Positions 6,912-38,309 of a DNA stretch of 64,000 nt are shown here, piece by piece; position 1 is the stretch's first letter, and each line of letters opens with the position of its first letter. The stretch covers positions 62,001 through 126,000 of the forward strand of contig NZ_JACHVA010000102.1 of NCBI RefSeq assembly GCF_014230055.1, given 5' to 3'. Both the position numbers and the translations under genes were made by a program. Source of the DNA: Puniceicoccus vermicola (lineage in GTDB: Bacteria > Verrucomicrobiota > Verrucomicrobiia > Opitutales > Puniceicoccaceae). Below the pieces are notes generated by a model. The model was not told the origin of the DNA. It did not search any database and saw only the letters and a program-made list of their open reading frames with translations.

Positions 6912-6930
6912 GCGCTAAAAAAAAGGCGGC

Positions 6931-9165: not shown

Positions 9166-9191
9166 ATTAACAATTTCAGCTTCAACCTCGG

Positions 9192-13645: not shown

Positions 13646-13670
13646 GGAAGAGCCCCCCTTAAGTCTCCTT

Positions 13671-21900: not shown

Positions 21901-22840
21901 CCTCCTGTGGACGAAAGTCCTCCCCCAAGTCTGGGACCTAACCCTGACCCTGAGTCTGGGCGTCTTCATCGGCGTCCTTCTGGAAGTATCCGGATGCCTT
22001 AAGAAACTGGCCAAGTACGCAGGCCCCCTCCTCTCCCTCGGCCGATTTTCCCCCGAGTCCGGCGCTGCCTTTGTCGCGTCCTTTGGATCGACGAAAGCCG
22101 CCCACGCCATGCTGGCCTCCGCCTACCGGGGAGGAAAGATCCAACGCCGAGAGCTAGTTCTCAGCGCCGTAGCCAACTCGCTGCCCAGCACCCTCTTGCA
22201 TTTGAAGTTTTTTGCACCCCTCATGATCAGTGTTCTGGGCGCAGTCGGGGCCGCCTATGTTGGTTTCGTCATCGGGGCTGCAGTTCTCGTATTCCTGGTC
22301 GCGGTCATCCTCTCCCGCCTTCTGGTCTCGCCAACGATCAACACCGTGGATGCCGAAGACTTGAAGGCGGTCTCCGTTCGGCCAACCCCGAAGATCGCCG
22401 CTCGGATGATGTGGGACCGTTGGTGGAAGATGACCCTCCGCGTCCTTCTCGTCGCGATCCCCGTTTACGCAGCCGTGGACTGGATTCAGGCCGAAGGCGG
22501 ATTCAAATGGATCGCCAGCATTCTCCCCTCCTGGGTTGATGCGATCTTCCCGGTTCAAAGCATGAGCATTATTGTGGCTCAACTTTCCGGAACCACTGCC
22601 GCCGTCTCGACGACGAAAAGCCTTCTCGAAAGCGGAGCCCTCAGCGGCACCCAAGTGTTCTTCACCCTTCTCGCCGGCTACTGTCTCGCACTTCCGGTAA
22701 AAGTTCTACGCCGAAGCCTCCCCTCGGCCGTCAGCATCTTTCCCGACACAACCGGATTCTGGATCATCGGGGTCAGCCAAGGAGTTCGCCTCCTCCTCGC
22801 CGTGAGTATGGTCGGAACCTACATGGTCATCGCCTCATGA
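21890..22840 (+). CDS. Gate-domain (nucleoside-recognition-like) membrane protein inside the B12 operon
   Basis: 316 residues, polytopic. Hydrophobic segments are visible around residues 12-32, 50-70, 95-155, 180-200, 220-245 and 280-316. The conserved blocks SFGSTKAAHAMLASAYRGG, SLPSTLLHLKFFAPLM and QLSGTTAAVSTTKSLLESG place it with Gate/SpmA-like predicted permeases, whose transported substrates are mostly unknown. It overlaps cbiL by 11 bp and cbiC by 4 bp, so it is firmly embedded in the cobalamin operon. Candidate roles are cobalt or tetrapyrrole movement across the inner membrane, which would connect the exported chelatase with cytoplasmic enzymes; this is inference. It is not CbiM/N/Q or CorA by sequence. 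Confidence 0.75.
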   Translation: MTFDLLWTKVLPQVWDLTLTLSLGVFIGVLLEVSGCLKKLAKYAGPLLSLGRFSPESGAAFVASFGSTKAAHAMLASAYRGGKIQRRELVLSAVANSLPSTLLHLKFFAPLMISVLGAVGAAYVGFVIGAAVLVFLVAVILSRLLVSPTINTVDAEDLKAVSVRPTPKIAARMMWDRWWKMTLRVLLVAIPVYAAVDWIQAEGGFKWIASILPSWVDAIFPVQSMSIIVAQLSGTTAAVSTTKSLLESGALSGTQVFFTLLAGYCLALPVKVLRRSLPSAVSIFPDTTGFWIIGVSQGVRLLLAVSMVGTYMVIAS

Positions 22841-23493
22841 ATACGAGAGAAGAGAGTATCACCTGGAACTGGTCCGGGGCCCAGGTCGAGGCAGAGAGTT
22901 TTCGCCGCATCGAAGCGGAGATCGGCGACCACGGGCTCTCTCCCGAGCACTGGCGGGTCGGCCGCCGGATGATCCATACCTGCACCGACTTCCGTCTCGT
23001 CGAAAACCTGTCCTTTCACGGAAGCCCTGTCCCCGCAGCTCTCACCGCCCTCCGCGACGGTGCCTCCATTTATTGCGACTCCAACATGATTCGCTCGGGC
23101 ATCTCCGTCCCCAAGCTGAAGAAATTCAATTCGGACTACGAACGGGAGAGCATCCATTGCTACGTTTCGGACCCGGAGGTAGCCTCCCTTGCCGCCCGAA
23201 ACAACACCACCCGTGCTTTGGCCGCCATTGAGAAAGGTCGTCCAATCATCGACGGAGGGATCGTGCTCATCGGGAATGCGCCCCTCGCCCTCGCTGGGAT
23301 TTGCAGAATGATCGAGGCGGGCGAACTCATGCCTCGTCTCGTCATTGGAATGCCCGTTGGATTCGTCAACGTCATCGAATCCAAACGATGGCTGGCCCGT
23401 ACGGATGTCCCTCACATCGTTCTCCACGGGCGACTCGGGGGCAGCCCTCTCGCAGTCAGCGCCCTGCACGGGATCATGGAGAGCGGCCTGTGA
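22837..23493 (+). CDS. cbiC: Cobalt-precorrin-8 methylmutase
   Basis: Moves the C11 methyl group to C12, giving (cobalt-)hydrogenobyrinic acid/cobyrinate. 218 residues. The catalytic histidine is in GRRMIHTCTDF, followed by the substrate-contact region IYCDSNMIRSGIS and the C-terminal MPVGFVNVIESK, all family hallmarks. The ATG overlaps the upstream membrane-protein stop (ATGA), and its TGA is shared with the GTG start of cbiD. Confidence 0.96.
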   Translation: MNTREESITWNWSGAQVEAESFRRIEAEIGDHGLSPEHWRVGRRMIHTCTDFRLVENLSFHGSPVPAALTALRDGASIYCDSNMIRSGISVPKLKKFNSDYERESIHCYVSDPEVASLAARNNTTRALAAIEKGRPIIDGGIVLIGNAPLALAGICRMIEAGELMPRLVIGMPVGFVNVIESKRWLARTDVPHIVLHGRLGGSPLAVSALHGIMESGL

Positions 23494-24647
23494 ACAAAAA
23501 CCTCCCAACGCCGGTCTTGCCGACCACCGCACCCGGGCCTGGGCTTCGGACAGGGTTCAGCACTGGCGCGTATTTGAGTGCGACCGCGGTGGCCGCCTGG
23601 CTGCGCCTCGAAGGGAGAGCTGTCAAAGATTCGATCTCCATCCTCTTTCCCGATGGAGAGTTACGAAGTGTGAACATCGACGGAGAAGAACCTCTCTCTG
23701 CAAATGGACATGCAGCCTGGGCCGCGAAAGATGCCGGCGAGGATGTGGATAAAACCCATGGCCTGATCATCCGCTCCCAGCTTCAACGCAGCACGTTGCC
23801 CCTCCGGCCCGAAGATACCCGGGAAACGGATTTCGTAGAAGTTACCGGAAGCCTGACCGTCGTCCTTCGAGGCGGAAAAGGAGTCGGACTCGTTACCCGC
23901 AAAGGGCTTGACGTTCCTCCCGGAAAGCCAGCCATCAATCCAACACCGCGAAAGATGCTGCTGGAGAACCTTTCCGAGCTCCCCCATGGCAACTGGCGGA
24001 CGGTCTGGATCGAGGTAAGCATTGAAGGCGGCGAGAAAGTGGCTCGAAGGACCTTAAACCCAACTCTCGGAGTTGTCGGAGGGCTATCGATACTGGGCAC
24101 CTCCGGCCAAGTGATCCCATGCTCCCATGCCGCCTATGTGGCCACCATCGAGATCCTCATCCGCGGGGCGGCCCTCAATCATTTTTCTGAAATCGCCCTG
24201 GTCACCGGAGGACGCAGTCACCGCTGGCTCAAAACCCAGTATCCCGATTTCGAGGACACGGCCATCGTTCGCTTTGGTGATTTCATCGAACAATCGCTCG
24301 CGATCTGCCAACGCCACGGAATCCCATGCATCCGGATCGTTTGCATGGCCGGCAAACTCGCCAAATACGCTCTCGGCATCACGAACACTCATGCCGATAA
24401 AGCCGCACAATCCCCGACCCGGGTGGCCGATTTACTCATCAGCGAGGGAATGGAGTCAGAGAGTCTCCAGCACGCATCGGATTGCCGTAGCGTCCGCGAG
24501 CTCCTCGATGGGCTTGAGACCGAAAACCGCCGTCAAGCCATTCAAATCTTAAAGTCACTCGCCGCGAAACAACTCCAGGCCTGGGCACACCCCTCGCGTA
24601 TCCACCTGCACGTACTCGACACCACCGGAAAGAGAGAACTTCCATGA
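23490..24647 (+). CDS. cbiD: Cobalt-precorrin-5B C1-methyltransferase
   Basis: C1 methylation specific to the anaerobic pathway. 385 residues from the GTG at 23490, which overlaps the cbiC stop as GTGA; longer in-frame readings run through cbiC and are not expected. The signature RTGFSTGAYLSATAVAAW (commonly RTGFTTGTCAAAAAKA) is at residue ~20. Later blocks are VGLVTRKGLDVPPGKPAINP, NPTLGVVGGLSILGTSG and MAGKLAKYALGITNTHADKA. CbiD has a fold unrelated to the other methylases and marks the route as oxygen-independent. Stop overlaps the next ATG by 4 bp. Confidence 0.95.
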   Translation: MNKNLPTPVLPTTAPGPGLRTGFSTGAYLSATAVAAWLRLEGRAVKDSISILFPDGELRSVNIDGEEPLSANGHAAWAAKDAGEDVDKTHGLIIRSQLQRSTLPLRPEDTRETDFVEVTGSLTVVLRGGKGVGLVTRKGLDVPPGKPAINPTPRKMLLENLSELPHGNWRTVWIEVSIEGGEKVARRTLNPTLGVVGGLSILGTSGQVIPCSHAAYVATIEILIRGAALNHFSEIALVTGGRSHRWLKTQYPDFEDTAIVRFGDFIEQSLAICQRHGIPCIRIVCMAGKLAKYALGITNTHADKAAQSPTRVADLLISEGMESESLQHASDCRSVRELLDGLETENRRQAIQILKSLAAKQLQAWAHPSRIHLHVLDTTGKRELP

Positions 24648-25777
24648 AACTCCAAACCGTACTCAACGCACTCGATTCCCATCGGCTCCACCGCGCACCG
24701 GAATGGGACGACAGCCTACGCACCATCCTGATCCGCCACGAAGCGGATCTCGTCCTGCTGGACAGCCCTCCCAATCCGCAAATCTGGAAAGAGGGAATCG
24801 ACGGCTTCATCGCTGTGGACGGCACCCTCTGCTTTCGCCATGGGGATCCGCTCGGAATTGCCCTCCGCCAACTCTTCGTTCATTGCGTAACCTTCGTCGG
24901 AGCAGCACCCAGTCTCAAACAATGCACTCTCGAAGCCATTGAAGCCATTGAGGAGGCCGATGTCTGCCTCCACGATACCCTTTTCGACCCGAGCATCCTT
25001 CGAAAGCTGAAACCTGGGGCAACCCTCTTCAACGTCGGCAAACGCTGTGGCAAACACGCGGTGCGTCAGTCCGACATCAACCGCCTCATCCTCAACCATG
25101 CGCGGATGGGTCTTCGAGTCGCCCGCCTCAAAGCGGGGGATCCGGGAATCTACGGGCGCCTCTGCGAGGAAACCGACGCGCTGACCGACCACGGACTTCC
25201 CTTTCACGTCCAACCGGCAGTGAGTAGTCTCTCCGTCGCGACTACGGGAAGCGGTCTCCTCCTCACCCGCCGAGGATGCCACCGCGGATTCACGGTCATG
25301 ACCCCGCGATGTGCGGGCGGAGTAATCGGAGAACTCAACCCGTCTTCGATGGATTTGCCCATCATCCTCTTCATGGCCTCTCACATTGTTCGCGAGTCGA
25401 TCGAGAATCTCCGCAAGAATGGCCTCAAGGCCCATACCCCCGCCGCTATCATCTACGACGCCGGAACCCCCAGCGAAGAGATCATCGAAGGAACCGTCGA
25501 GACCCTCCCCGACATCGTCGACCAACTACCCCGCCGGACAGGACTGGTCTATCTTGGCGAGGGAGTCACCCACGGTCTTTGGCCCAAATTCGGCCCCCTT
25601 GCCGGAGAGAAATTTCAACTTCCGGACGACGCCCCCGACGAGGTTCTCCATCGTCTCCACGACCTCGGCGGCTCCCGTTCTCCCAACCCGGAGGCTCCGA
25701 TGATTCTCGATCTGGAAACTCTCGAAGCTCTCGCGCTGCGACGGTTCGTGAGGAACCTTGCGCCCTGTGCCGCATGA
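24644..25777 (+). CDS. Divergent uroporphyrinogen-III C-methyltransferase (SUMT-like) with unknown N-terminal domain
   Basis: 377 residues. Residues ~85-330 form a tetrapyrrole methylase domain: FVGAAPSLKQCTLEAIEAI, FNVGKRCGKHAVRQSDIN (the SUMT-specific GKR-G-H region), RLKAGDPGIYGRLCEE and TGLVYLGEGV. Several loops deviate from consensus (GAAPS for GAGPGDP, KAGDPGIYG for KGGDPFIFG, PAVSSLSVATTG for PGITSASGAAA). The first ~85 residues and the last ~45 match nothing I recognise; they do not carry the GxGxxA motif of Met8/CysG dehydrogenases. In context it should make precorrin-2 (C2 and C7 methylation) for this pathway. Overlaps cbiD by 4 bp and ends 4 bp before cbiET. Confidence 0.8.
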   Translation: MKLQTVLNALDSHRLHRAPEWDDSLRTILIRHEADLVLLDSPPNPQIWKEGIDGFIAVDGTLCFRHGDPLGIALRQLFVHCVTFVGAAPSLKQCTLEAIEAIEEADVCLHDTLFDPSILRKLKPGATLFNVGKRCGKHAVRQSDINRLILNHARMGLRVARLKAGDPGIYGRLCEETDALTDHGLPFHVQPAVSSLSVATTGSGLLLTRRGCHRGFTVMTPRCAGGVIGELNPSSMDLPIILFMASHIVRESIENLRKNGLKAHTPAAIIYDAGTPSEEIIEGTVETLPDIVDQLPRRTGLVYLGEGVTHGLWPKFGPLAGEKFQLPDDAPDEVLHRLHDLGGSRSPNPEAPMILDLETLEALALRRFVRNLAPCAA

Positions 25778-25781
25778 GACC

Positions 25782-26999
25782 ATGGCACACCCCATCCACA
25801 TCATCAGTTGCGGCACCTGCCGTGAAGATCTGACTCAAGCTTCGGCCGAAGCCGTCCGGCACTGTGACATTCTCTATGGGGGTAAGCGATTGCTGGACTG
25901 GTTCGACGAACCCGGTTTTCGCAAGATCCCCCTGACTGCATCCCTCGACGCCGAGATACAAGATCTGCGAGACCTCAGTGAGGACCACCCAATCGCCGTT
26001 TTGGCTTCGGGAGACTCCCTCTTCTTCGGAATCGCAAGTCGACTGCGCGCAAGCGTTCCTCTCGATCAGCTTGTCATCCACCCCGGAATCAGTGCGATGC
26101 AAGCCGCATCCTCCCGGCTGGCCCTCGATTGGCATCAGGCACGATTTTTCAGCATTCACGGTCGGAACATTCCTCTTCCCTGGAGGCCTATCCTACAAAG
26201 TCCCCTCGCCGTGATCTACGGCGACAACCAACGCTCCCCGTCCTGGATCGCCCAAGAGCTCCTCAGGCGCTACCCCGAATCTGCCAACCGGCAGGCACAT
26301 ATCGCAGAGAATGTGGGATCTCCCGCAGAACGGATCCTCAGCCTCCCCCTCGGGAAGATCCCCGAGCAGGAAACCAGGGGCCTATCGATGCTAATCCTCG
26401 AAGGAAAGAACTCTCGTCAATTCGCCCCCTTGAGCTTGGGTCTCCCCGATGAAACCTACGAACACGAAAACAACCTGATCACCCACCCGGAGATTCGGGC
26501 TATTGCTTTAGCCAAACTGCAGCTACGACCGGGAGTCCTCTGGGATCTCGGCGCCGGAAGTGGTTCGGTCGGATTGGAGGCCGCGGGCCTGGTCGGTCAA
26601 CTCTCGGTTCACAGCGTTGAGAAAGATCCCCAACGCACGGCGATGATCGAGACCAACCGCACCACCCAGGGCTTGAGCGACTTTACGGTATGGAATGAGA
26701 AGATCAGCGTCGCCCTTCCCCAGCTCCCCGACCCTTCCTCGGTCTTTATCGGAGGCGGAGGACGGGAGATTCGTCATCTCGTTGAAACCGCATTTGAGCG
26801 TCTGCAACCCGGAGGGCGAATCGTCGCCACCGCAATCCTCGCCGACAGCGTTGCCCAACTCTCTTCCACCCTACCGGACTCTCGCCTCGAATGGCTCGAG
26901 GTCTCCGTCCGCCGAGCCAAGCCCCTGGCGCACAGCTCGATCATGCAACTCGACAATCCCATTAACCTCTTCGTCTTCGAAAAACCAATAGCCTCGTGA
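25782..26999 (+). CDS. cbiET: Fused cobalt-precorrin-7 C5-methyltransferase / cobalt-precorrin-6B C15-methyltransferase (decarboxylating)
   Basis: About 405 residues from ATG 25782, 4 bp after the previous stop; an in-frame TTG at 25758 would overlap that gene. The N-terminal CbiE half (1-~220) has ILYGGKRLLDWF, VLASGDSLFFGIASR and HPGISAMQAASSRL. The C-terminal CbiT half (~235-405) has the class I SAM site WDLGAGSGSVGLEAA, the acidic end of beta2 in HSVEKDPQR, and VFIGGGGREIRH. Fusion gives the equivalent of aerobic CobL. Its TGA overlaps the GTG of the next gene. Confidence 0.95.
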   Translation: MAHPIHIISCGTCREDLTQASAEAVRHCDILYGGKRLLDWFDEPGFRKIPLTASLDAEIQDLRDLSEDHPIAVLASGDSLFFGIASRLRASVPLDQLVIHPGISAMQAASSRLALDWHQARFFSIHGRNIPLPWRPILQSPLAVIYGDNQRSPSWIAQELLRRYPESANRQAHIAENVGSPAERILSLPLGKIPEQETRGLSMLILEGKNSRQFAPLSLGLPDETYEHENNLITHPEIRAIALAKLQLRPGVLWDLGAGSGSVGLEAAGLVGQLSVHSVEKDPQRTAMIETNRTTQGLSDFTVWNEKISVALPQLPDPSSVFIGGGGREIRHLVETAFERLQPGGRIVATAILADSVAQLSSTLPDSRLEWLEVSVRRAKPLAHSSIMQLDNPINLFVFEKPIAS

Positions 27000-29641
27000 A
27001 ACCTGGAACCATTACTTTCGCCGGAGCCGGCCCTGGCGCTCCCGACCTGCTCACCGTTCGCGTCCACACGGCTATCGCCGAAGCGGACCTCATCGTCTAC
27101 GCCGGTTCTCTCGTCAGCCCCGAGGTCATGGCCCACGCCCGGCCGGACTGCGCAAAGCATGACAGCGCTCCGCTGAATCTTGAGCAAATTACTGATCTCA
27201 TGATCAACGCCGCGAAGGAGGGCAAAAAAGTCCTTCGGCTCCATACCGGTGATCCCTCAATCTACGGGGCGACGGCCGAGCAAATGCGGATTCTCGATCA
27301 AGCCGGCATCACTTACGAAACCATCCCCGGCGTCAGCGCCGCCTTCGCCGCCGCCGCCGCACTGAATGTGGAACTGACCCAACCGGGCATCAGCCAGAGT
27401 ATGACTATCACCCGCCGGGCCGGACGCACTCCCGTCCCCGACGGGGAGGAGCTCTCTTCTTTTGCCGCGCACGGATCCTCCTTAGCTCTGTATCTGAGCA
27501 TCAGCGACATGGCCGGAGTAGTCCAAGACCTGCTCGCGCCCGGAGCCTTTACTCCCGAGACCCCCGCCGCTGTCGTCTACCGGGCCAGCTGGCCGGATGA
27601 AACCATCGTCCGTGGAACCCTCGCCGATATTGCCGAAAAAGTGCAAACTGCGGGCATCCGACGCCAAGCCATAATCCTCGTCGGTGCAGCTCTTCTCGGC
27701 CAGGGGGAGGATTCCCTTCTCTACGCCAAGAATTTTGCCCACGGCTATCGCAACCGCAGCAGCGAGCCCGTCTCGCTCTCCCCTTCCCTCGTGACCCCGT
27801 TTCTTCGCTTCGGAGGGCGGATCGCTCTCTACGGGCTCACCGAAACCGGATGCGAGACCGCACGCTCATTGTCCCGCCTGCTGAATGCCACCGCCTTTAC
27901 CAGCAAAAAGCACTACCAGGAGATGGAGAACGAGATTTGCTTTGACCCACGCCGATTGGCCCCACTGATTGCCCGGAATTGGCGACGCTTTGATGCTCAC
28001 GTCTGTGTTATGGCTTCGGGCATCGTCGTACGGAAAATCGCCCCTCTCCTCGAATCCAAGGAGACCGATCCCGCCGTCGTGGTCCTCGACGAGCAGAAGA
28101 CCTATGCGCAGAGCCTCGTCAGTGGGCATATCGGAGGAGCCAACCGCCTCTGCCAGGACATCTCCCAGCTCACCGGAGCCCAGGCCGTCTTATCTACTGC
28201 ATCCGACGTCCACGGACACACGGCATTTGACGAGCTCTCCGCTACCCGCGGATGGCGTATTGAGAACATGGATTCGCTCAAGGATCTTAACTCGGCCCTC
28301 GTCGAAGGAAAATCCATCGGACTTCTTGGTTTCAGTGAGTCAGAAAGAGCTGTCTACGAAGATCAATCGAACCTCCACCCGATCACAGAGGAATCCCAGC
28401 TCGCCGAAGTCGACGCGCTGGTCACCCTGGATGCCGAACCGCTCCCGGATTTTGCCGGCCCTTGCCTTCGCCTCACCCGCCTACCCTTGGTCGTTGGAGT
28501 AGGCTGCCGAAAAGGAGTCCCCTCCGAAATGATCGCATCGGCAATTCGTGAAACTTGTGCCCGATACGGTCTGGACGAGCCGCGAATCGAGCAGTTGGCT
28601 TCCGTCGAACTCAAGAAGGAGGAACCAGGGATCCTCGCAGTCGCCGAGGCCAACGGGTGGAAAACTCATTTCCTCCCCTCTTCCGAACTCGAGAAGCAGG
28701 CTTCCCCAAACCCTTCAAACTTCGTAGCGAAAACCGTATCGACCCCATCCGTTGCCGAAGCCGCGTGCCTTGCAGTCGGCCAAGGTCGATTACTCGCACC
28801 CAAGCAAAAGCTGGGACCCGTTACCATCTCGATCGGCACAATGGGGCCACTGACCCTCCGCCAGGGCGCAGCATCCAACTCGGCGGACGCCCGAGGAAAG
28901 ATCGTGGCCATCGGAATCGGCCCAGGAACGCGGGCGGGTATGACCCATGAAGCGGAAGATGCCATTCGCTACGCCGACTGCGTTGTCGGATACAGTTCTT
29001 ACTGCCGCCAAGTCGAGTGGCTCACCGGCAAAGAAAATGTCTTCTCGACCGGCATGCGCTCGGAAATCGAACGTTGTGATGAAGCCGTTCGCCGTGCCGC
29101 TGACGGAAAGACGGTGGCCCTCATCTGTTCCGGAGATGCTGGAGTATATGGCATGGCCGGATTGGCTCTGGAACGAGTCGAGGTTCTCGGCGAACTTCAA
29201 AGAGTCGACGTGGAAGTCATCGCCGGAGTGACGTCCTCCTGTTCCGCAGCAGCAGCTGTCGGAGCACCGTTGATGAATGACTTCGCCACGGTGAGTCTCT
29301 CCGATCTGCTAACACCCCGCGAAATCATCGAAAAGCGTATCGATGCCGTCGTCACTTCCGGTATGGCCTGCGCTCTCTACAATCCCCGCAGTCGAAAACG
29401 GCAAGCGCTCCTCGACGAGGTCTTGGCAAAGTTCTCCGCCGCCCGCGGAGAGCAGACACCCACCGCGATTGTTCGCGATGCGGGTCGTCCGAAGGAGTGG
29501 TCCTGGGTGGGCCCCCTTTGCGATATGCCAATCGAAGAAATCAACATGACCACCATGGTCCTGATCGGAAATGAGCAATCCCTCATCAGCAATGGTCGCT
29601 TCTACACGCGCCGCGGATACGAGAAAAAAGAAAGTTACTGA
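26996..29641 (+). CDS. cbiFGH: Triple fusion CbiF-CbiG-CbiH (C11-methyltransferase, cobalt-precorrin-5A hydrolase, C17-methyltransferase)
   Basis: One 881-residue chain carries three consecutive ring-contraction steps. CbiF (1-~255): FAGAGPGAPDLLTVR, HTGDPSIYGATAEQM, IPGVSAAFAAAAALN. CbiG (~265-625): the N-terminal half IALYGLTETGCETA and VMASGIVVRKIAPLL, the conserved SGHIGGANRLC, and the C-terminal domain starting LVVGVGCRKGVPSE at ~498. CbiH (~632-881): VAIGIGPGTRAGMTHEAEDA, ICSGDAGVYGMAGL, NDFATVSLSDLLTP. Co-linear substrates (cobalt-precorrin-3, -4, -5A) suggest channelling. Order in the chain is F-G-H whereas reaction order is H-F-G. Start is the GTG at 26996 overlapping the cbiET stop. 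Confidence 0.95.
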   Translation: MKPGTITFAGAGPGAPDLLTVRVHTAIAEADLIVYAGSLVSPEVMAHARPDCAKHDSAPLNLEQITDLMINAAKEGKKVLRLHTGDPSIYGATAEQMRILDQAGITYETIPGVSAAFAAAAALNVELTQPGISQSMTITRRAGRTPVPDGEELSSFAAHGSSLALYLSISDMAGVVQDLLAPGAFTPETPAAVVYRASWPDETIVRGTLADIAEKVQTAGIRRQAIILVGAALLGQGEDSLLYAKNFAHGYRNRSSEPVSLSPSLVTPFLRFGGRIALYGLTETGCETARSLSRLLNATAFTSKKHYQEMENEICFDPRRLAPLIARNWRRFDAHVCVMASGIVVRKIAPLLESKETDPAVVVLDEQKTYAQSLVSGHIGGANRLCQDISQLTGAQAVLSTASDVHGHTAFDELSATRGWRIENMDSLKDLNSALVEGKSIGLLGFSESERAVYEDQSNLHPITEESQLAEVDALVTLDAEPLPDFAGPCLRLTRLPLVVGVGCRKGVPSEMIASAIRETCARYGLDEPRIEQLASVELKKEEPGILAVAEANGWKTHFLPSSELEKQASPNPSNFVAKTVSTPSVAEAACLAVGQGRLLAPKQKLGPVTISIGTMGPLTLRQGAASNSADARGKIVAIGIGPGTRAGMTHEAEDAIRYADCVVGYSSYCRQVEWLTGKENVFSTGMRSEIERCDEAVRRAADGKTVALICSGDAGVYGMAGLALERVEVLGELQRVDVEVIAGVTSSCSAAAAVGAPLMNDFATVSLSDLLTPREIIEKRIDAVVTSGMACALYNPRSRKRQALLDEVLAKFSAARGEQTPTAIVRDAGRPKEWSWVGPLCDMPIEEINMTTMVLIGNEQSLISNGRFYTRRGYEKKESY

Positions 29642-29644
29642 TTC

Positions 29645-31024
29645 ATGACCCCGGCCTTCCATCGTTTTTGCATCGCCGGCACCCAATCCGGTGCGGGAAA
29701 GACTACCGTCTCTCTCGGGCTCATGGCCGCCCTGCGAAAACGAGGATTTCGGGTTCAACCGTTCAAATGTGGCCCCGATTATATCGACACGGGTCATCAT
29801 CGCCACGCCGCTGGGGTGCGTTCCCGCAATCTAGATAGCTGGATGATGCCCGCAAAAGCGGTGAGAGATTCATTCGCCAGAGGGAGCACCCAGGCAGACG
29901 TCGCAATCTGTGAGGGGGTCATGGGTCTTTTCGACGGGGCCAGCCCGACCGAACTCAGTGGCAGCTCAGCAGAAATCGCCAAGCTGATCGATTCCCCGGT
30001 CGTCCTAGTCGTCAACGCCCGGGCCATGTCCCGATCAATCGCGGCTCTGGTGGCGGGCTTCACCCATTTCGAGCCGGGAGTGAATATCTGCGGAGTCATC
30101 GCTAACCAAGTCGGCAGCGAACACCATGCCTCGCTTCTTCGTGAAGCCCTCGCTTCTTCAAGTCTCCCTCCTCTGCTCGGATGGCTCCCTCGTGATCCAC
30201 AGTTTTCACTGCCCGAAAGACACCTCGGATTGATTGCCGACACCGAGGCGAATTCCCTCCAAGAGCGAATCGAGGTTCTCGCGAAGGCAATGGAGCGTTA
30301 CATCGATCTCGATCTCCTTCTCTCCACGACAAGCGGAAGCAGGCCCAGCCTCCTGAATCCCCATCCGCCCCGTCCTACCCGCGACCTCCGGCTCGGTCTC
30401 GCCCGTGATCCGGCCTTTCACTTCTACTACGAAGACAATCTCGATGCCCTCCGGTCGAAGGGAGTCGAACTGATCGAGTTTTCTCCCCTGCAAGATGGAT
30501 CCCTCCCCCGTGATTTGAATGGTCTCTACTTCGGCGGGGGCTTTCCCGAACAGTTTGCCCAGGAGCTCTCGAGCAACCAGCCGATGCTGGAAAGTATCCG
30601 AAATTTTGCCCAGCAGGATCGACCCATCTTCGCCGAATGTGGAGGGTTTATGTACCTGTGCCGGGAAATCCGGATGCCGGATGGAACAACCTGGCCTCTC
30701 TCGGGAATCATCCCAGGGGACTGCTTGATGCGAGAGAAACGCCAGCGTCTCGGATACAGTCAAGCGACGACACGGACTGGGAGCCTCTTCGGCCCCATGG
30801 GCACCCGATTGAGGGGTCATCGTTTCCACTGGTCGGAAGTCATCCTTGATTCGGGCATCGACCCTCTTTTCCACCTCGAAAGCGCGCGGGGAATCCCGGA
30901 GCCGGAAGTGGGAATTCAATACGATTCGATCTCCGCCTCCTATTTTCATCCCCATTTCGCCTCCAACCCGGAGGCGCTTGATGCTTGGGTCGAAGCCTTA
31001 TCCCGAACCGAAGCCCCCGTATGA
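29645..31024 (+). CDS. cbiA: Cobyrinate a,c-diamide synthase
   Basis: ATP- and glutamine-dependent amidation of the a and c carboxylates of cobyrinate. 459 residues. The N-terminal dethiobiotin-synthetase-like domain has a P-loop in AGTQSGAGKTTVSLG and the adjacent PFKCGPDYIDTGHH. The C-terminal class I glutaminase domain has GGFPEQFAQEL and the catalytic cysteine in AECGGFMYLC, with a late histidine in SYFHPHFASNP. Family length is ~460. It starts 3 bp after cbiFGH, and its TGA overlaps the cobO ATG (ATGA). Confidence 0.95.
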   Translation: MTPAFHRFCIAGTQSGAGKTTVSLGLMAALRKRGFRVQPFKCGPDYIDTGHHRHAAGVRSRNLDSWMMPAKAVRDSFARGSTQADVAICEGVMGLFDGASPTELSGSSAEIAKLIDSPVVLVVNARAMSRSIAALVAGFTHFEPGVNICGVIANQVGSEHHASLLREALASSSLPPLLGWLPRDPQFSLPERHLGLIADTEANSLQERIEVLAKAMERYIDLDLLLSTTSGSRPSLLNPHPPRPTRDLRLGLARDPAFHFYYEDNLDALRSKGVELIEFSPLQDGSLPRDLNGLYFGGGFPEQFAQELSSNQPMLESIRNFAQQDRPIFAECGGFMYLCREIRMPDGTTWPLSGIIPGDCLMREKRQRLGYSQATTRTGSLFGPMGTRLRGHRFHWSEVILDSGIDPLFHLESARGIPEPEVGIQYDSISASYFHPHFASNPEALDAWVEALSRTEAPV

Positions 31025-31551
31025 GCGCGGAATCAAAACGTCACTACCTGCATCTCTACACGGGCAACGGTAAGGGCAAAACAACCGCTGCCTCCGGTTT
31101 AGTTCTGCGCGGGGTCGCACAAGGGTGGAAGGTATTTTTCGGCCAATTCATCAAGAACAGCCCGAGCGGAGAGATCTCCTTATTGAGAGAGCGCTTTCCG
31201 GAGGTGACGGTCGAACAATTCGGTAGAGGCTTCTTTCTCCGCCGTGCGCCCGAGCCCGCAGACCTCGAGGCAGCGGTGAACGGCTTGCAAAGACTGCAAA
31301 AGGTAGCCGAAGCCGAAGAGCACCGAATGATCGTCGCTGACGAGCTCCTGATCGCTTTGAAATACGAGTTGATCAGCCCATCTGCGGTGCTCCACCTGGC
31401 GGATACCTGCAGCACCCGGGCCGAGCTAATATTTACCGGACGCTATGCCCCGGATTGGCTCATCGAGAGAGCAGACCTGGTCTCCGAGATCCAACCCTTA
31501 AAGCACTACTATCAAGCCGGAGTTCCGGCGCGAAAGGGAATTGAGCGATGA
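31021..31551 (+). CDS. cobO: Cob(I)alamin / corrinoid adenosyltransferase (CobO/BtuR type)
   Basis: Transfers the adenosyl group of ATP to the Co(I) corrinoid. 176 residues from the ATG at 31021, which overlaps the cbiA stop. The reversed P-loop LYTGNGKGKTTAASGL lies near residue 14, followed by FGQFIKNSPSGE, VADELLIALKYELI and FTGRYAPDWLIERADLVSEI, the CobA/BtuR/CobO pattern. It supplies the adenosylated substrate required by CobQ, CobU and, if the identification is right, the downstream CbiR-like protein. Stop overlaps the next gene by 4 bp. Confidence 0.95.
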   Translation: MSAESKRHYLHLYTGNGKGKTTAASGLVLRGVAQGWKVFFGQFIKNSPSGEISLLRERFPEVTVEQFGRGFFLRRAPEPADLEAAVNGLQRLQKVAEAEEHRMIVADELLIALKYELISPSAVLHLADTCSTRAELIFTGRYAPDWLIERADLVSEIQPLKHYYQAGVPARKGIER

Positions 31552-32351
31552 ATGCGCCTCCACCATTTCGCGTGGGGACGACCTCCTTCATCATCCCGGC
31601 CGACTACGGACCCAATATTCAGTTCCTTGCGGGGAAGACCGAGGACATCGCCCTCCTCTTCTTCGAGTCTCTCAAACCGAACACTGAACTGAGCTGGCTT
31701 GAAGAAGCCCGCACCCTTCAAGACCGCCATGACTTAACGTTCACGGTGCACCTGCCAGCCGACATACGCCTGGCATCGACCCGGGAATCTCTTCGAGCCC
31801 AAGCGATAGCCTCCTGTGAGACCATCATGCGAATGCTGGCTCCACTCCAACCCAAGGCCTATGTCTGCCATGCCGATGGGGATTCAGAACAGCCTCTCAA
31901 TCGATCTGAACTCACCGCCCTCTCCCGATCTCTCATCCGCCTGGGAGAATGCTGCGGAGATGCTTCCCGGATCTGTGTCGAGAACGTCCGCGAATCCCAC
32001 GACACTCTCCGACCGGCGCTTCAAGATAGCGGAGCCTCGATCTGCTACGACCTCGGCCACGCTATACTTCGTGATCAACCTGTGCTCCAAGAGCTGCGAC
32101 AATGGCTGCCGCACTGCCGGGTCCTCCATCTTCATGGGGTCAAAGAGGGGAGGGATCATCACCCTTTGTCTGAACTCCCCCCCCATCTACTCCAAGAAGT
32201 TCTGGAAATCTTCGGCTCCCCGGAAGGACCCCCGAACAGGACCCTTACCCTGGAACTATTCCACCGGGATCGCTGGGAATCCTCCGTGAGAACTTTGAAT
32301 GCGATGCTTGCGGAGATGAACCGACTCCGACCGAAAGAAGTCACCCGATGA
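31548..32351 (+). CDS. cbiR: CbiR-like TIM-barrel protein (putative cobamide-remodelling hydrolase)
   Basis: 267 residues with an AP-endonuclease-2/xylose-isomerase-like TIM barrel. Putative metal and acid residues lie at strand ends: the histidine in FTVHLPAD, glutamate in CVENVRES, Asp/His in CYDLGHAIL, histidine in VLHLHGVKEG and glutamate in LTLELFHRD. In Verrucomicrobiota the known B12-linked member of this superfamily is Akkermansia CbiR, which hydrolyses a cobamide to AdoCbi-phosphate so that a new lower ligand can be attached. Its place between cobO and cobU, coupled by 4-bp overlaps on both sides, fits that role. The name rests on fold, context and phylum, not on an alignment. An unrelated sugar-phosphate isomerase role is the main alternative. 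Confidence 0.65.
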   Translation: MNAPPPFRVGTTSFIIPADYGPNIQFLAGKTEDIALLFFESLKPNTELSWLEEARTLQDRHDLTFTVHLPADIRLASTRESLRAQAIASCETIMRMLAPLQPKAYVCHADGDSEQPLNRSELTALSRSLIRLGECCGDASRICVENVRESHDTLRPALQDSGASICYDLGHAILRDQPVLQELRQWLPHCRVLHLHGVKEGRDHHPLSELPPHLLQEVLEIFGSPEGPPNRTLTLELFHRDRWESSVRTLNAMLAEMNRLRPKEVTR

Positions 32352-32869
32352 ATCCTGTTATCTACATTTCCGGAGGCTGCCGCAGCGGAAAGAGCCGCTA
32401 TGCTGAAACACGCGCGAACGAGTTCGCTGCGCCACGGGCCTATATCGCCACCGCCGAGATCTTCGACGAGGAAATGCGGGAGAGGGTCCGCCTCCACCGC
32501 GAGCAGCGCGGCAATGCATTCCACACGGTCGAGGCCCCGGTCCGCCTCGCCGAAGCTCTGCGTTCACTACCCGCCGCAACCAACGTTGCTCTCGTTGACT
32601 GCCTAACGGTCTGGCTCGGAAACCTAATGCACCATCGGGGTGAAGACTTCTCGGAAGACTGCCAAGAGATCCATGCACTTCTCAAGCTGCTTCAGGACCC
32701 ACCCTGCTCGATCATCCTCGTTAGCAACGAACTCGGAATGGGCATTGTCCCTGAGAATGCACTGGCTCGCCGTTTTCGCGATGTCGCCGGACGCCTCAAT
32801 CAACGAGTTGCCGCAGTCGCGAGCGAAGCCTATGTCACTGTGAGCGGGATACCTCTTCAATTGAAATAG
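32348..32869 (+). CDS. cobU: Adenosylcobinamide kinase / adenosylcobinamide-phosphate guanylyltransferase
   Basis: Bifunctional activation of (adenosyl)cobinamide to AdoCbi-GDP. 173 residues, standard. The P-loop is YISGGCRSGKSRYAE at the N-terminus. The guanylylated histidine region is RVRLHREQRGNAFHTVE. The Walker-B-like VDCLTVWLGNLM and ILVSNELGMGIVP complete the family pattern. ATGA overlap with the CbiR-like gene; cobT follows after 7 bp. It would process AdoCbi-P whether made de novo by CbiB or released by CbiR. Confidence 0.95.
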   Translation: MNPVIYISGGCRSGKSRYAETRANEFAAPRAYIATAEIFDEEMRERVRLHREQRGNAFHTVEAPVRLAEALRSLPAATNVALVDCLTVWLGNLMHHRGEDFSEDCQEIHALLKLLQDPPCSIILVSNELGMGIVPENALARRFRDVAGRLNQRVAAVASEAYVTVSGIPLQLK

Positions 32870-32876
32870 CCAAACC

Positions 32877-33971
32877 ATGATCCAAGAAACCATCGCCAAA
32901 ATTCAGCCGGTTGATTCCACTCTGGCACCCGCGGTTCAGAATCATCTCGACGACCTGATAAAACCACGGGGCAGCCTGGGGATGCTCGAGCGATTGGCCA
33001 AACGATTCGTCCTCGCCACGGGGAACCCGCATCCGTCTGCCAAGAAAAAGCGGATCTGCGTCTTCGCCGCCGATCACGGAGTGGTCGACGAAGGGCTCAC
33101 TTTTACCGGATCCGAATTTACGCCGCTGATCGTTGGCAACATGATTGAGGGAAAATCCGGAGTCAGCATTTTCAGCCAGCACGTGGGATCCGAACTGGAG
33201 GTGGTCGACGTGGGGATCAACGCCGACGTCAGCGGTATGAAGAAGCTCCTGCAGCGCAAGATCGCTCTTGGAACCCGTAATCTCGCCCGGGAGCCCGCGA
33301 TGACCTCGGATGAGTGCGCACGTGCCATCGCAGTGGGCATCGAAAGGGCCAATGCCGCTGCCGATGACGGCATCCAACTCTTGGGAACCGGAGAGATGGG
33401 TATCGGCAACACCACTCCGTCCTCTGCGATTCTGGCCGCCCTCCTCCCCAGTTCCGTCCGGGAAGTGACCGGCCCTGGGGCCGGGCTCAAGAATGACGAA
33501 GCGCTGGAGCACAAGATCGAGGTCATCGAGCGTGCGCTTCTCCTCCATCAAAAAGCGCTTCAGGATCCTTTCCAAACTTTGGCCGCCGTGGGCGGACTGG
33601 AGATCGCCGCACTCACCGGACTCTGCCTCGGAGCCGCAGCCCGGCGGCTGCCGGTTGTCATCGATGGCTTCATCGCTTCCGCTGCCGCTCTCGTTGCTTT
33701 TCGTCTCAGCAGCAGCGTTGCCGACTACCTTTTCTACTCGCACCGTTCAGCAGAACCGGGTCACGACACCTTTGCCCGTGAATTGGGAGTCGAGCCCATC
33801 CTTCAACTGGGCATGCGCCTCGGCGAGGGAACTGGAGCCGCACTCGCAATGAACATCATCGAAGCCTCGCTGAAAATGTATACGGAGATGCCGACCTTCA
33901 GTTCCTTCAAAGTCGAAAACACCAATCACGCCCGATGCTTTCCGGCCTCGTCACAGCCCTGCGTCTACTAA
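32877..33971 (+). CDS. cobT: Nicotinate-nucleotide:5,6-dimethylbenzimidazole phosphoribosyltransferase
   Basis: Makes alpha-ribazole phosphate, the activated lower ligand. 364 residues. Diagnostic blocks are KPRGSLGMLERLAKR, VFAADHGVVDEGLT, GEMGIGNTTPSSAI, and the catalytic glutamate in QLGMRLGEGTGAALAM. No bluB, bza or ThiC-like gene for base synthesis lies in this window, so the lower base is imported, made elsewhere, or obtained by remodelling. The stop lies 37 bp inside cobS, a longer overlap than elsewhere in the operon. Confidence 0.96.
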   Translation: MIQETIAKIQPVDSTLAPAVQNHLDDLIKPRGSLGMLERLAKRFVLATGNPHPSAKKKRICVFAADHGVVDEGLTFTGSEFTPLIVGNMIEGKSGVSIFSQHVGSELEVVDVGINADVSGMKKLLQRKIALGTRNLAREPAMTSDECARAIAVGIERANAAADDGIQLLGTGEMGIGNTTPSSAILAALLPSSVREVTGPGAGLKNDEALEHKIEVIERALLLHQKALQDPFQTLAAVGGLEIAALTGLCLGAAARRLPVVIDGFIASAAALVAFRLSSSVADYLFYSHRSAEPGHDTFARELGVEPILQLGMRLGEGTGAALAMNIIEASLKMYTEMPTFSSFKVENTNHARCFPASSQPCVY

Positions 33972-34663
33972 GCATCCTGCCGATTCCCGGACGGGAGGCA
34001 CGGAACTTCTGTGACGGACTTTATTGGTATCCGCTCGCTGGTTTCATTCTCGGCGCACTGGTAACCGGTGTTTCCTGGTCCATCCTCTTGGTAGTCCCCC
34101 AATGGCCGGAACTCTCCGCGTTTGTCGCCCTCGCCTGCACCGTCATCGTGACCCGCGGCCTCCATCTCGACGGGGTGGCCGACTGCGCGGATGGATTCTG
34201 GGGCGAGCACACCCCAGAAAGGCGCTTGGAGATCATGAAAGACTCGAGGACTGGCGCGTTCGGGGTCATCGCATTGATTCTCATCCTCCTTGCCAAATCA
34301 GTCTTCTACACACGGATCTTTACCGAAGAGAATTACTGGCTAATCCCCCTCGCATTCGCAGTCTCCCGCTTCACGCTCACCGTCTTGGCACTTTGCTTTC
34401 GCTACCCGCGCAAGGTCGGAACTGCTGCGACCATCGTCCAAGGCGCCCACCTTCGGCATCTACTGGGAGCGACCGCTCTCACCCTCCTCCTCGGGATTTA
34501 CGCACCTCTCGCAGTTCTGCCGATATTCTTTGTCGGCCTCTTGATTGCGGTAAGCCTGGGATTCCTCGCCCGCTCGCGCATCCAAGGAGTTACCGGTGAC
34601 GTTTTCGGAGCTGCCTGCGAACTCTCGGAACTCGGAGGTCTTCTCGTCATCGCATTACTCTGA
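33935..34663 (+). CDS. cobS: Adenosylcobinamide-GDP ribazoletransferase (cobalamin-5'-phosphate synthase)
   Basis: Integral membrane enzyme joining AdoCbi-GDP and alpha-ribazole (phosphate). 242 residues. The N-terminus MLSGLVTALRLLSILPIPG is typical; the active site is LHLDGVADCADGFWG (DGxxDxxDG), followed by RRLEIMKDSRTGAFG. Five to six hydrophobic segments are visible. The ATG at 33935 lies 37 bp inside cobT; the start is supported by the conserved N-terminal helix that begins there. Confidence 0.95.
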   Translation: MLSGLVTALRLLSILPIPGREARNFCDGLYWYPLAGFILGALVTGVSWSILLVVPQWPELSAFVALACTVIVTRGLHLDGVADCADGFWGEHTPERRLEIMKDSRTGAFGVIALILILLAKSVFYTRIFTEENYWLIPLAFAVSRFTLTVLALCFRYPRKVGTAATIVQGAHLRHLLGATALTLLLGIYAPLAVLPIFFVGLLIAVSLGFLARSRIQGVTGDVFGAACELSELGGLLVIALL

Positions 34664-34670
34664 CACCACG

Positions 34671-36215
34671 ATGAAACACGCAACCTGTCTCTCCTTCCTC
34701 GGAACCGGCTCGGACGTCGGAAAAAGCTTTGTCGTCGCGGGAATCTGTCGAGCCCTCAAGAACCGAGGCTTCTCCGTCGCCCCGTTCAAGGCGCAAAACA
34801 TGTCCAACAACTCCTTCGTCACTTTAGACGGCTTGGAAATGGGACGGGCACAAGTAGTTCAGGCGGAAGCCTCGGGAATCGAACCGGAGGTCGATATGAA
34901 CCCGGTCCTCCTCAAACCGTCGGGAGACTGCCGCTCGCAAGTCGTCCTCCAGGGAAAGGTCGTTGGCTCACGCCATGCGAAGGATTATTACAAGCAAACG
35001 GATGCCCTCTTTGCCAAGGCGATGGAGTCGCTGAACCGACTCCGTGAGCGTCACGATGTCATCGTCATGGAGGGGGCGGGCTCTTGCTCAGAGGTCAACC
35101 TACGGAGTCGAGATATCGTTAACTTCCGACCTGCCCATGAAACGGATGCCCCGGTCATCCTCATCGCCGACATCGACCGCGGCGGGGTATTTGCTCAAAT
35201 CGTCGGGACCCTCGAAGTAATTCCCCCTGAAGATCGAGCCCGCATCGCCGGAATCCTCATCAATCGCTTCCGGGGGGACATTTCTCTCTTCGAAGACGGA
35301 GTGCGTTGGATCGAGGAGCGGACGGGACTCCCAGTTCTCGGAGTCATCTCCTACAACCGCGAGATACTCATCGACTCCGAAGACGGAATGGATGTGCAGA
35401 CCCAGATCAATCCCTCCGGCGCTCTGGACCCCGACAAGATCAACATCGCGACCATACTTTTTCCCCGTATCTCGAATCACACGGACCTCGCCGCGCTCCA
35501 ATGTGAACCGGGCGTGGAGGTTCATTTTCTGACCCGTCCCAAGTCCCTCGTCGGCTATGACCTCCTCATCCTTCCCGGTTCCAAAAACGTGCGCAGTGAT
35601 CTTGAGTGGATGAGGAAGAATGGCTGGGAAGAAAGGATCAACGCCTTCGCACAGTCTGGAGGAAGTATTGGCGGAATCTGCGGTGGTTACCAAATGATGG
35701 GCCAATCCATCCAAGACCCTCACGGGGTCGAAGGATCTCCCGGAGCTGAGTCGGGACTCGGCTTACTCCCCACCGAAACGGTTCTCGCTCCCGAGAAGCG
35801 ACTGACCCGCAACCACGGCACCTGGATTGGCAACCGTCGCCCGGTCCATGGATACGAGATTCATATGGGCCGCACCCGTAGTTCTTCCGAAGAACTGCGA
35901 CCCGCAATTGCATGGAGCGCCGAGAGCGCGACCGCGGAGGCCAATTCCGACGGCCTGTCGACGCCCGATGGCAAAATCTGGGGCACCTATCTGCACGGGC
36001 TCTTCGACTCTGGACCCTTTCGGCAAGAGTTCCTTTCCAATCTTCGTCCCGACTGGCAGCCTCCCGCTCAGCAGAACCCCTTACACCTCGCTCCTGGGGA
36101 AGACTTCGAGAATTTCAAAGCCCGGCAATACGACCGCCTCGGAGACCATATCGAGAAATGCATCGATGTGGAGAAACTCATCGCAATCGGAAAACTTCAC
36201 TGTGAAATCTGCTGA
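34671..36215 (+). CDS. cobQ: Cobyric acid synthase
   Basis: Amidates carboxylates b, d, e and g of adenosylcobyrinate a,c-diamide. 514 residues from ATG 34671 (MKHATCLSFLG), 7 bp after cobS; upstream in-frame starts lie inside cobS and add non-family sequence. The P-loop-like GTGSDVGKSFVVAG and the hallmark PFKAQNMSNNSFVT are near the N-terminus, MEGAGSCSEVNL and ILIADIDRGGVFA follow, and the glutaminase cysteine is in GGICGGYQMMG, with YEIHMGRT and GTYLHGLFD at the end. Confidence 0.96.
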   Translation: MKHATCLSFLGTGSDVGKSFVVAGICRALKNRGFSVAPFKAQNMSNNSFVTLDGLEMGRAQVVQAEASGIEPEVDMNPVLLKPSGDCRSQVVLQGKVVGSRHAKDYYKQTDALFAKAMESLNRLRERHDVIVMEGAGSCSEVNLRSRDIVNFRPAHETDAPVILIADIDRGGVFAQIVGTLEVIPPEDRARIAGILINRFRGDISLFEDGVRWIEERTGLPVLGVISYNREILIDSEDGMDVQTQINPSGALDPDKINIATILFPRISNHTDLAALQCEPGVEVHFLTRPKSLVGYDLLILPGSKNVRSDLEWMRKNGWEERINAFAQSGGSIGGICGGYQMMGQSIQDPHGVEGSPGAESGLGLLPTETVLAPEKRLTRNHGTWIGNRRPVHGYEIHMGRTRSSSEELRPAIAWSAESATAEANSDGLSTPDGKIWGTYLHGLFDSGPFRQEFLSNLRPDWQPPAQQNPLHLAPGEDFENFKARQYDRLGDHIEKCIDVEKLIAIGKLHCEIC

Positions 36216-36228
36216 GCCAGAAGCAAAA

Positions 36229-37326
36229 ATGCCGGCCTCCCACGCCCACGGGGGAAAGCCCGGAAATCTCTTCGCGCGCTATGGCCTTGCCGAGAGAGAT
36301 GTCGTGGATCTCAGCGTCAACCTGAACCCTCTCGGGATCCCTGACTCCATTCGAAAGGCTTGGCCTCAACTCATCGAATCCCTAACTCCCTACCCGTCCT
36401 CTGACGGGGAAGGAATCCGCCGTTTTTACCAAGAACGCTTCGCGCTCAGCCCGGACAGAATTCTACCCGGAAACGGTTCGATCGAATTGATGTATGCGGC
36501 CACACAAACGCTCCGCCCCCGCCGCACCTTGATCCTCACCCCCTCTTTCCACGACTATGAGCAAGCCGTGAGGACGAGCGGCGGAGAGGTGCTTCCCATT
36601 CCGCGCAACCTCGAAGAACCCGTTGACGAGTTCCTGACCGGCGAGTGCTTCCAGAAGGCGCTGACTACGGTGGACTCGGTTTTTCTCGGAAGCCCAAATA
36701 ATCCCGACGGGCAAGCGGTCCCCCGCGAAACGCTTCTGCATGTGTGCCGATCCAATCCCGACACTTTGTTTTTTGTCGATCAGGCTTTTGTTCAATTTCT
36801 CGATGAGGAACGCTACTCCCTCCTTCGAAACGACAGCCTTCTCCCCAATCTGATCGTTTTCTCCTCCCTAACCAAATTCTATGCCCTCGCCGGCCTCCGC
36901 CTCGGCGCAGTGATCGCCGTCCCCAGTATTATTCAAAAATTGCAGCGCCAACGCCCCCCATGGCTGGTCAATGGGCTTGCCGAACGCTGTGCGCAAATCC
37001 TCCTCGAGGATCGCGACTACGAAAGCCGGACTCATCAATGGCTCCGCACCGCCTGCACTTCCTTCGACCGTAAGATCGCTCGGATCCCCAGTGTACATTC
37101 CTACCCTTCTCAAACGAATTTCCGTCTCCTTCGCCTAACGTCTCCTGATCGCTACGATTCCGTGCTTCGAGAACTCCTGCAAAGAGGCTTTCACGTGCGT
37201 TGCTGCCGAAACTTCGAAGGGCTATCGGAAGGGCACTTTCGAATCTGTCTCGACACTCCCGAGCGTAACCAAAAGTTCCTCCACGCCTTGAAATCGAGCC
37301 TTCAAGCTGCCCCTATCCCCTCATGA
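36229..37326 (+). CDS. cobD: L-threonine-O-3-phosphate decarboxylase (PLP enzyme)
   Basis: Produces (R)-1-amino-2-propanol O-2-phosphate for the nucleotide loop. About 365 residues from ATG 36229; a GTG at 36202 that overlaps the cobQ stop is an alternative and would fit the coupling style of the operon. N-terminal SHAHGGKPGNLFARYG and DLSVNLNPLG match CobD. The PLP lysine is in SSLTKFYALAGLRLGA, and HFRICLDTPERN is near the C-terminus. Fold-type I aminotransferase-like; context separates it from histidinol-phosphate aminotransferase. The stop overlaps cbiB by 4 bp. Confidence 0.93.
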   Translation: MPASHAHGGKPGNLFARYGLAERDVVDLSVNLNPLGIPDSIRKAWPQLIESLTPYPSSDGEGIRRFYQERFALSPDRILPGNGSIELMYAATQTLRPRRTLILTPSFHDYEQAVRTSGGEVLPIPRNLEEPVDEFLTGECFQKALTTVDSVFLGSPNNPDGQAVPRETLLHVCRSNPDTLFFVDQAFVQFLDEERYSLLRNDSLLPNLIVFSSLTKFYALAGLRLGAVIAVPSIIQKLQRQRPPWLVNGLAERCAQILLEDRDYESRTHQWLRTACTSFDRKIARIPSVHSYPSQTNFRLLRLTSPDRYDSVLRELLQRGFHVRCCRNFEGLSEGHFRICLDTPERNQKFLHALKSSLQAAPIPS

Positions 37327-38309
37327 CCGCGGTGTCCGCTACGATTCTTCTTGTCGCGATTTCTCTCGACCTGATCATTGGCGACCCGCGCTATCCCCTG
37401 CATCCGGTGCGGTTGATCGGGCATCTCATTCACCTTCTGGAAAAGATCCTTCGGCGCCTCGGACTCGATTCCTATATTGGAGGAGGTCTGCTACTCATCC
37501 TCTCCACGGTGATTCCGGTGTCGACTTGGAGCTCTCTGTATTTCCTATTCTCTGACATCAACTGGCTCCCCGAACTCTGGACGATATTCCTCGTCTACTC
37601 TTGTCTCGGGATGGGAGATCTCATTCGCCATGCCCGACCCATCGCAAAAGCACTAGAACGCCACGACCTCCCGCTTGCCCGAGAACGGGTTTCCTGGATC
37701 GTCGGCCGGGACGTTTCCCAGCTGTACGAATCCGGAATCGCCCGGGCCGCCATTGAGAGTGTTGCCGAAAACTTCGTCGATGCTTTCTTAGCTCCCGTTT
37801 TCTGGTTTGGCTGCGGAGCCATACTCTTCGCTCATACCGGTGGAGATCCTCTACTCGGAGGCGGTCTGGCGATTCTGGTCCACCGGGTTGCGAACACCCT
37901 CGACGCCATGGTCGGCTACCGCAATGAACGATACCGGAAGCTGGGATGCGCCTCCGCGCGCTGCGACGATCTCCTGAACTTTATTCCCGCCCGCCTTTCG
38001 ATTCCGTTGATCAGCCTGGCCGCCCTTATCTCCGGAAATGATGCTCGAAAGGCCATACGGACCGGATGCCGGGACCGCAAAAACCACCCGTCACCGAATT
38101 CCGCCCATGGAGAGAGCACCGTCGCCGGGGCCCTCGACATTGCCCTCGGTGGACCAACCCCCTACCCATACGGAACTGTCGACAAACCATGGCTCAACGC
38201 CGAAGGCCATCCCGCGGAAGCGACCGACATTTCCAAAACGATGCGACTCACAACCGTGTCGGCAATCATCAGTGGAATCCTAATCGCCGGTATCCTCTGG
38301 ATCACCTAG
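37323..38309 (+). CDS. cbiB: Adenosylcobinamide-phosphate synthase (CbiB type)
   Basis: Membrane enzyme attaching aminopropanol phosphate to adenosylcobyric acid. 328 residues. The N-terminal LDLIIGDPRYPLHPVRLIG is the family signature, ARERVSWIVGRDVSQL and IESVAENFVDAFLAPVFWF follow, and the late NSAHGESTVAGALDIALGG is conserved. Four to five membrane helices are apparent. The name clash with bacterial cobD (decarboxylase) is avoided here by using cbiB. Last certain gene of the operon; a 70-bp gap follows without an obvious terminator. Confidence 0.95.
   Translation: MTAVSATILLVAISLDLIIGDPRYPLHPVRLIGHLIHLLEKILRRLGLDSYIGGGLLLILSTVIPVSTWSSLYFLFSDINWLPELWTIFLVYSCLGMGDLIRHARPIAKALERHDLPLARERVSWIVGRDVSQLYESGIARAAIESVAENFVDAFLAPVFWFGCGAILFAHTGGDPLLGGGLAILVHRVANTLDAMVGYRNERYRKLGCASARCDDLLNFIPARLSIPLISLAALISGNDARKAIRTGCRDRKNHPSPNSAHGESTVAGALDIALGGPTPYPYGTVDKPWLNAEGHPAEATDISKTMRLTTVSAIISGILIAGILWIT

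Follow-up and report, generated by a model that had tools for sequence, protein, structure and literature searches.

CbiR was characterised from Akkermansia muciniphila (Amuc_1679), where the enzyme, under anaerobic conditions and in the presence of DTT, converts AdoCbl to AdoCbi-P and alpha-ribazole and acts likewise on MeCbl (PMC7733943). All seven cobamides tested are cut, the end product of Akkermansia itself included, and the cbiR gene widens the use of cobamides in E. coli (PMC7733943). For Akkermansia, it was not settled how a CbiR-bearing cell spares its own product (PMC7733943). A sequence-only reading of the DNA described here had taken CbiR as a tool of organisms without ring synthesis. 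This is true of the strain from which the enzyme was characterised, but all 75 recently sequenced A. muciniphila strains carry CbiR, including 26 with the de novo pathway (PMC7733943), and for such Akkermansia de novo B12 synthesis is backed by bioassay (PMC6974653).

Here we describe a cbiR gene from Puniceicoccus vermicola that is located within an operon for cobamide synthesis. The analysed stretch of 64,000 nucleotides is called the window in the following. It is well supported that the gene codes for a new member of the CbiR family; the family itself, and its coexistence with de novo synthesis, were already known.

A cobamide operon with an embedded cbiR gene

Family scans revealed a cobamide operon which extends from cbiK to cbiB (20262 to 38309), with all genes on the forward strand. 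It begins with cbiK for an anaerobic-type cobaltochelatase (20262-21170; PF06180 228.6 bits, NF047852 199.5) and cbiL for the C20-methyltransferase (21154-21900; TIGR01467 183 bits, cut-off 163). These are followed by a gene for a Gate-like membrane protein (21890-22840), by cbiC for precorrin-8X methylmutase (22837-23493; NF006136 163.5 bits) and by the corrin ring gene cbiD (23490-24647; TIGR00312 279.7 bits, cut-off 200). Next are a CobA-type uroporphyrinogen-III methyltransferase (24644-25777; TP_methylase, with NF004790 at 157.9 bits and thus under its cut-off) and two fusions for corrin ring synthesis, cbiET (25758-26999, start not exact; TIGR02467 126.4 and TIGR02469 105 bits) and cbiF-cbiG-cbiH with 881 residues (26996-29641; TIGR01465 363.3 bits, TIGR01466 308.3 bits and CbiG models). 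The cobyrinic acid a,c-diamide synthase gene cbiA (29645-31024; NF002204 512.1 bits) precedes cobO for the corrinoid adenosyltransferase (31021-31551; NF004637 170.6 bits, just under the cut-off of 185, and sequence overlaps).

Downstream of cobO and cbiR the operon continues with cobU for AdoCbi kinase / AdoCbi-P guanylyltransferase (32348-32869; NF004469 192.4 bits, cut-off 161), cobT for the lower-ligand phosphoribosyltransferase (32877-33971; TIGR03160 411.5 bits) and cobS for AdoCbi-GDP ribazoletransferase (33935-34663; PF02654, and TIGR00317 119.6 bits, cut-off 110). The last genes are cobQ for cobyric acid synthase (34596-36215, with a true start probably after the cobS stop; NF001989 627.4 bits), cobD for threonine-phosphate decarboxylase (36208-37326, start not exact; TIGR01140 293.6 bits) and cbiB for AdoCbi-P synthase (37323-38309; TIGR00380 221 bits). 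CbiK, CbiC, CobA and CobO score under the narrow cut-offs of individual equivalog models and are clear by family and position.

CbiK and CbiD are marks of the anaerobic cobamide route. Judged by its gene content, the operon is of the anaerobic type for de novo synthesis and lacks only cbiJ, which agrees with its earlier description as near-complete. All other ring-synthesis enzymes were found, and CbiJ was detected neither in the operon nor in the rest of the 96%-complete assembly, nor in G089, a further genome from this order that carries a colinear operon. The ring cluster of B12-producing Akkermansia is described as cbiK or cbiX, L, C, D, ET, FGH, A and a putative cobalt transporter, with cbiJ unnamed (PMC6974653). 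For this reason the gap is probably not fatal, and we infer that cobamide synthesis is probably not abolished. In both genomes, the step for which CbiJ was not detected may use an unrecognised reductase.

Two further proteins of the operon deserve mention. The Gate-like (nucleoside-recognition) membrane protein matches PF07670 with 23.8 bits, which is under the cut-off, but its position between cbiL and cbiC is kept in G089, where the homolog is 63% identical. A homolog is also found beside cbiC/cbiL in two loci from Desulfobacteraceae (L129, L131). Possibly, this protein is the putative cobalt transporter of the Akkermansia ring clusters. In the CobA-type methyltransferase, the N-terminal end is extended by about 80 residues and the C-terminal end by about 70-90, both without a Pfam match; the homolog in G089 is also long (360 aa).

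The open reading frame at 31548-32351 (267 codons, forward strand) is a genuine gene between cobO and cobU. Its product of 267 residues matches the NCBIfam CbiR equivalog NF041277 with 233.1 bits (cut-off 105, E = 3.4e-69), residues 7-251 being aligned to positions 1-248 of the 249 in the model, so that a chance ORF can be dismissed. No other protein of the 5.2 Mb assembly matches this model at E <= 0.001. In addition, Pfam AP_endonuc_2 (PF01261) is matched with 44.9 bits (cut-off 31.1), and the barrel gene read from the sequence at this place is thus confirmed. The cobO stop and the cbiR start share an ATGA overlap, as do the cbiR stop and the cobU start, and also the cbiA stop and the probable cobO start at 31021. 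Three consecutive junctions are therefore coupled, as had been proposed for cbiR within its operon.

The window does not contain a B12 riboswitch, and RF00174 is absent from the genome of the window species, from G089 and from two congeners (G001, G002). All four genomes nevertheless encode B12-binding proteins. Regulation must use other means, and a B12 riboswitch was rejected as regulator of the operon.

Residues, tree and modelled fold

The identification as CbiR had first been suggested from metal-ligand motifs, and ICVENV, ICYDLGHA, LHLHG and TLELF were all found in the cbiR translation. H68, H108, E145, D168, H171, H194, H204 and E236 are invariant when the protein is aligned with CbiRs from the phylum, Akkermansia-type ones among them, and equally when it is aligned with 50 CbiRs from many phyla. 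The full superfamily ligand set is thus kept in the comparison with Akkermansia CbiR that had been recommended. D203 aligns with residue 228 of the 284-residue Akkermansia-type CbiR, which is consistent with the D228A mutant described for Akkermansia CbiR in the original study.

However, the metal ligands do not by themselves identify a CbiR, because they are mostly common to the CbiRs and to 20 superfamily paralogs of the same order. These paralogs are low-scoring matches to the CbiR model, unnamed and not characterised as enzymes. The ligands alone were therefore rejected as proof of CbiR, and from the motifs quoted originally only the G of LHLHG and the F of LELF point to this family. Residue 197 is G in all 53 CbiRs, the cbiR product among them, and D in all 20 paralogs. 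A D after the second His-x-His was taken as the mark of a sugar isomerase/epimerase; the cbiR product has G197 instead. D72 is found in 53 of 53 CbiRs but in only 2 of the 20 superfamily paralogs, and F238 in 53 of 53 but in only 3 of the 20.

In a maximum-likelihood tree the 53 CbiR rows (the window protein and 52 others) are set apart from the 20 paralogs by a branch with an SH-aLRT of 100, in a quick search that left some long branches. A phylogeny that placed the protein among the sugar-phosphate isomerases, away from CbiR, had been named as an outcome that would refute the proposal, but the protein was found in the CbiR clade. Within this clade its partner is the CbiR of G089, with 53% identity, and the two sit alone on a long branch. 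It is not close to Akkermansia CbiR, with which it has about 25% identity.

The AlphaFold2 model of the protein is a TIM barrel with a mean pLDDT of 95.9. Searching solved structures by sequence yielded no informative match. By fold comparison, the closest solved structures are sugar epimerases (3wqo_A with Z 26.1, and many at 21-23), while xylose isomerases and endonuclease IV match at similar Z, so the fold backs the superfamily but not a substrate. Alternatively, the operon might by chance contain a sugar isomerase or epimerase from this superfamily; the epimerases as nearest folds would agree with this, although they are level with endonuclease IV. We consider this highly improbable in view of the NF041277 match, the tree and the residues G197, D72 and F238, and also because every other named gene of the operon serves cobamides. 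Equivalog model, tree, class-specific residues and operon setting together support the predicted CbiR identity of the gene at 31548-32351, which bears out the original proposal.

The divergence from the characterised enzyme, the isolated long branch and the position just before cobU might also reflect a drift to another, related substrate, for instance a biosynthetic intermediate (AdoCbi-GDP or cobamide 5'-phosphate), so that the protein would be a pathway hydrolase and not a remodeller. This appears improbable, as all CbiR-invariant residues are kept. To our knowledge, no member of the family uses AdoCbi-GDP or cobamide 5'-phosphate.

Distribution of cbiR and ring-synthesis genes

Among 388 genomes of the phylum, CbiR was found above cut-off in 37, CbiD in 45 and both in 12 (counts uncorrected for relatedness). 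Only in two of these 12, the window genome and G089, is cbiR within about 10 kb of cbiD. In an Akkermansia-like genus, the two genes are more than 500 kb apart in the four genomes that have both on one contig; in six other genomes they are on different contigs, where linkage cannot be judged. Within the order, 11 of 132 genomes encode CobS, and CbiR as well is encoded only in the window genome and G089.

A scan of contigs with the single CbiR protein as query found no relatives, and an alignment of 22 CbiR sequences was too diverse for patterns. A seven-row alignment was used instead and led to 80 loci from many phyla. Flanks of up to 10 kb were inspected and many contigs are short, so that all counts from flanks are lower bounds. 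With this proviso, cobamide genes are present in the flanks of 67 of the 80 loci. While in 30 of 77 loci the gene directly after cbiR is cobU, cbiR is immediately preceded by cobO in only 3 of 78, and cobO in this position was rejected as a general rule. Ring-specific genes are near cbiR in 4 of 80 loci. They are on the cbiR strand in a Kiritimatiellia locus (L113) and in the two Desulfobacteraceae loci (L129, L131), and on the opposite strand in Desulfatibacillum (L096). A literature search, limited in its wording, returned no paper on de novo cobamide synthesis in Chlorobi.

The pairing of CbiR with de novo synthesis is thus less novel than it had seemed from the window alone: it is known in Akkermansia, and cbiR is near ring genes in G089, in the Kiritimatiellia MAG and in Desulfobacteraceae. 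Within this phylum such a setting is uncommon, but it has precedents. What is distinctive is that cbiR is fully embedded in one operon and that the predicted CbiR product is the substrate of CobU, the enzyme encoded by the next gene.

A predicted re-entry loop in a probable cobamide producer

In de novo synthesis AdoCbi-P is made by CbiB. CobU converts AdoCbi-P to AdoCbi-GDP, and CobS then links this to the riboside that CobT helps to make. These reaction steps are mirrored in the gene order cbiR-cobU-cobT-cobS.

For a CbiR, EDTA-sensitive hydrolysis under anaerobic conditions is expected, and the window CbiR is predicted to be a metal-dependent cobamide phosphodiesterase. Its product AdoCbi-P would be converted to AdoCbi-GDP by CobU, encoded by the next, overlapping gene, and CobT and CobS would then attach a lower-ligand riboside. 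CbiR would thereby add a re-entry loop to the de novo operon. As judged from family, residues and operon, we consider it very probable that the gene codes for a CbiR-type phosphodiesterase that feeds CobU. Several points are against this: the identity of only about 25% to Akkermansia CbiR, the long branch, the ligands and the fold shared with sugar isomerases, and the fact that no FecCD permease is assignable to B12. Of the two full-length FecCD permeases in the genome, one has a heme-type ATPase partner and the other is ambiguous.

Enzymes that use cobamides are present. The genome encodes MetH (1834 bits, cut-off 1497) as well as methylmalonyl-CoA mutase (1292 bits, cut-off 876), the latter accompanied by a small-subunit-like partner. 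The most probable role of CbiR is to turn cobamides from outside into the form preferred by these two enzymes, while the cell's own synthesis would still be possible. In the genome of the window species BluB was not detected above cut-off, which suggests either that the lower ligand has another base than DMB or that DMB is imported, and CbiZ was not found.

The source of the cobamides that are cut can be seen in two ways. With moderate confidence we rank the remodelling of foreign cobamides first, given the known function of the family and the wider cobamide use conferred by cbiR in E. coli (PMC7733943), and that foreign cobamides are the main substrate seems somewhat better than an even guess. 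Alternatively, CbiR may act mainly on the product of the cell itself, stripping wrong lower ligands or recycling, so that CobU, CobT and CobS can refinish the molecule. The coupling of cbiR with its two neighbours cobO and cobU and the lack of an adjacent transport gene would suit this, as would a lower-ligand supply that may vary when BluB is not detected. A similar hint comes from G089, where CbiR is in the de novo operon and CbiZ in a cluster of uptake type (TonB-dependent receptor, periplasmic binding protein, FecCD permease, ATPase). We nevertheless regard action on self-made cobamides as unlikely, as the Akkermansia enzyme, which cuts its own end product along with the other cobamides tested (PMC7733943), is not known to discriminate, and as membership in the operon suits both roles. 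A stricter version is less probable still: here the cell would be a self-sufficient producer that uses CbiR, translated together with CobO and CobU, for the editing of its own cobamides, while foreign ones would play little or no role.

Remodelling of foreign cobamides thus remains our preferred reading. The embedding of cbiR, together with the predicted use of its product by CobU, makes the choice between remodelling foreign cobamides and editing self-made ones testable, and the value of the locus is that the role of CbiR in a cobamide producer can be studied cleanly here. Beyond its use by scavengers, CbiR can thus belong to an operon for the whole pathway, which makes a cobamide and would also be able to break it down to one of the operon's own intermediates. 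De novo flux, remodelling and the subsequent CobU step are all encoded in a single operon, which bears on the question left open for Akkermansia (PMC7733943).

The locus also bears on predicting which organisms make cobamides and which need them. The congeners G001 and G002 (97% and 99% complete) encode B12-binding proteins, but CbiR above cut-off, CbiD and CobS were not found in them. They look dependent on others, as importers, while the window species can probably produce a cobamide. By gene content, producing and dependent species seem to coexist in one genus.

Compared with known systems, the closest characterised relative is Akkermansia CbiR (PMC7733943), which shares the NF041277 match, the AP-endonuclease-2 barrel, the His/Asp/Glu set and the vicinity of nucleotide-loop genes. 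It differs by its low identity and in MucT serves a strain without ring synthesis; in the Akkermansia genomes with both genes cbiR is remote from cbiD where this can be judged, while in the window both are in the same operon. CbiZ, which also starts cobamide remodelling, has no sequence relationship to CbiR, and its cut is at the amide bond adjoining the aminopropanol linker (PMC7733943). The loci L129, L131 and L113 resemble the window in having cbiR on the strand of the ring genes and cobU next in order, but differ in gene order and by a separate CbiR branch. The most similar locus is that of G089 (L061, cbiR at 13437-14243 on the minus strand), with an operon colinear from cbiK to cbiB, although cobO is missing between cbiA and cbiR and cobQ is elsewhere. 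Unlike the window genome, G089 also has CbiZ, in a second cobamide cluster (L175, C1:698000-712000, at 1071-12518) together with a second CbiB, the uptake genes listed above and a CobQ-like protein. One genome thus combines a CbiZ associated with uptake genes and a CbiR associated with de novo genes.
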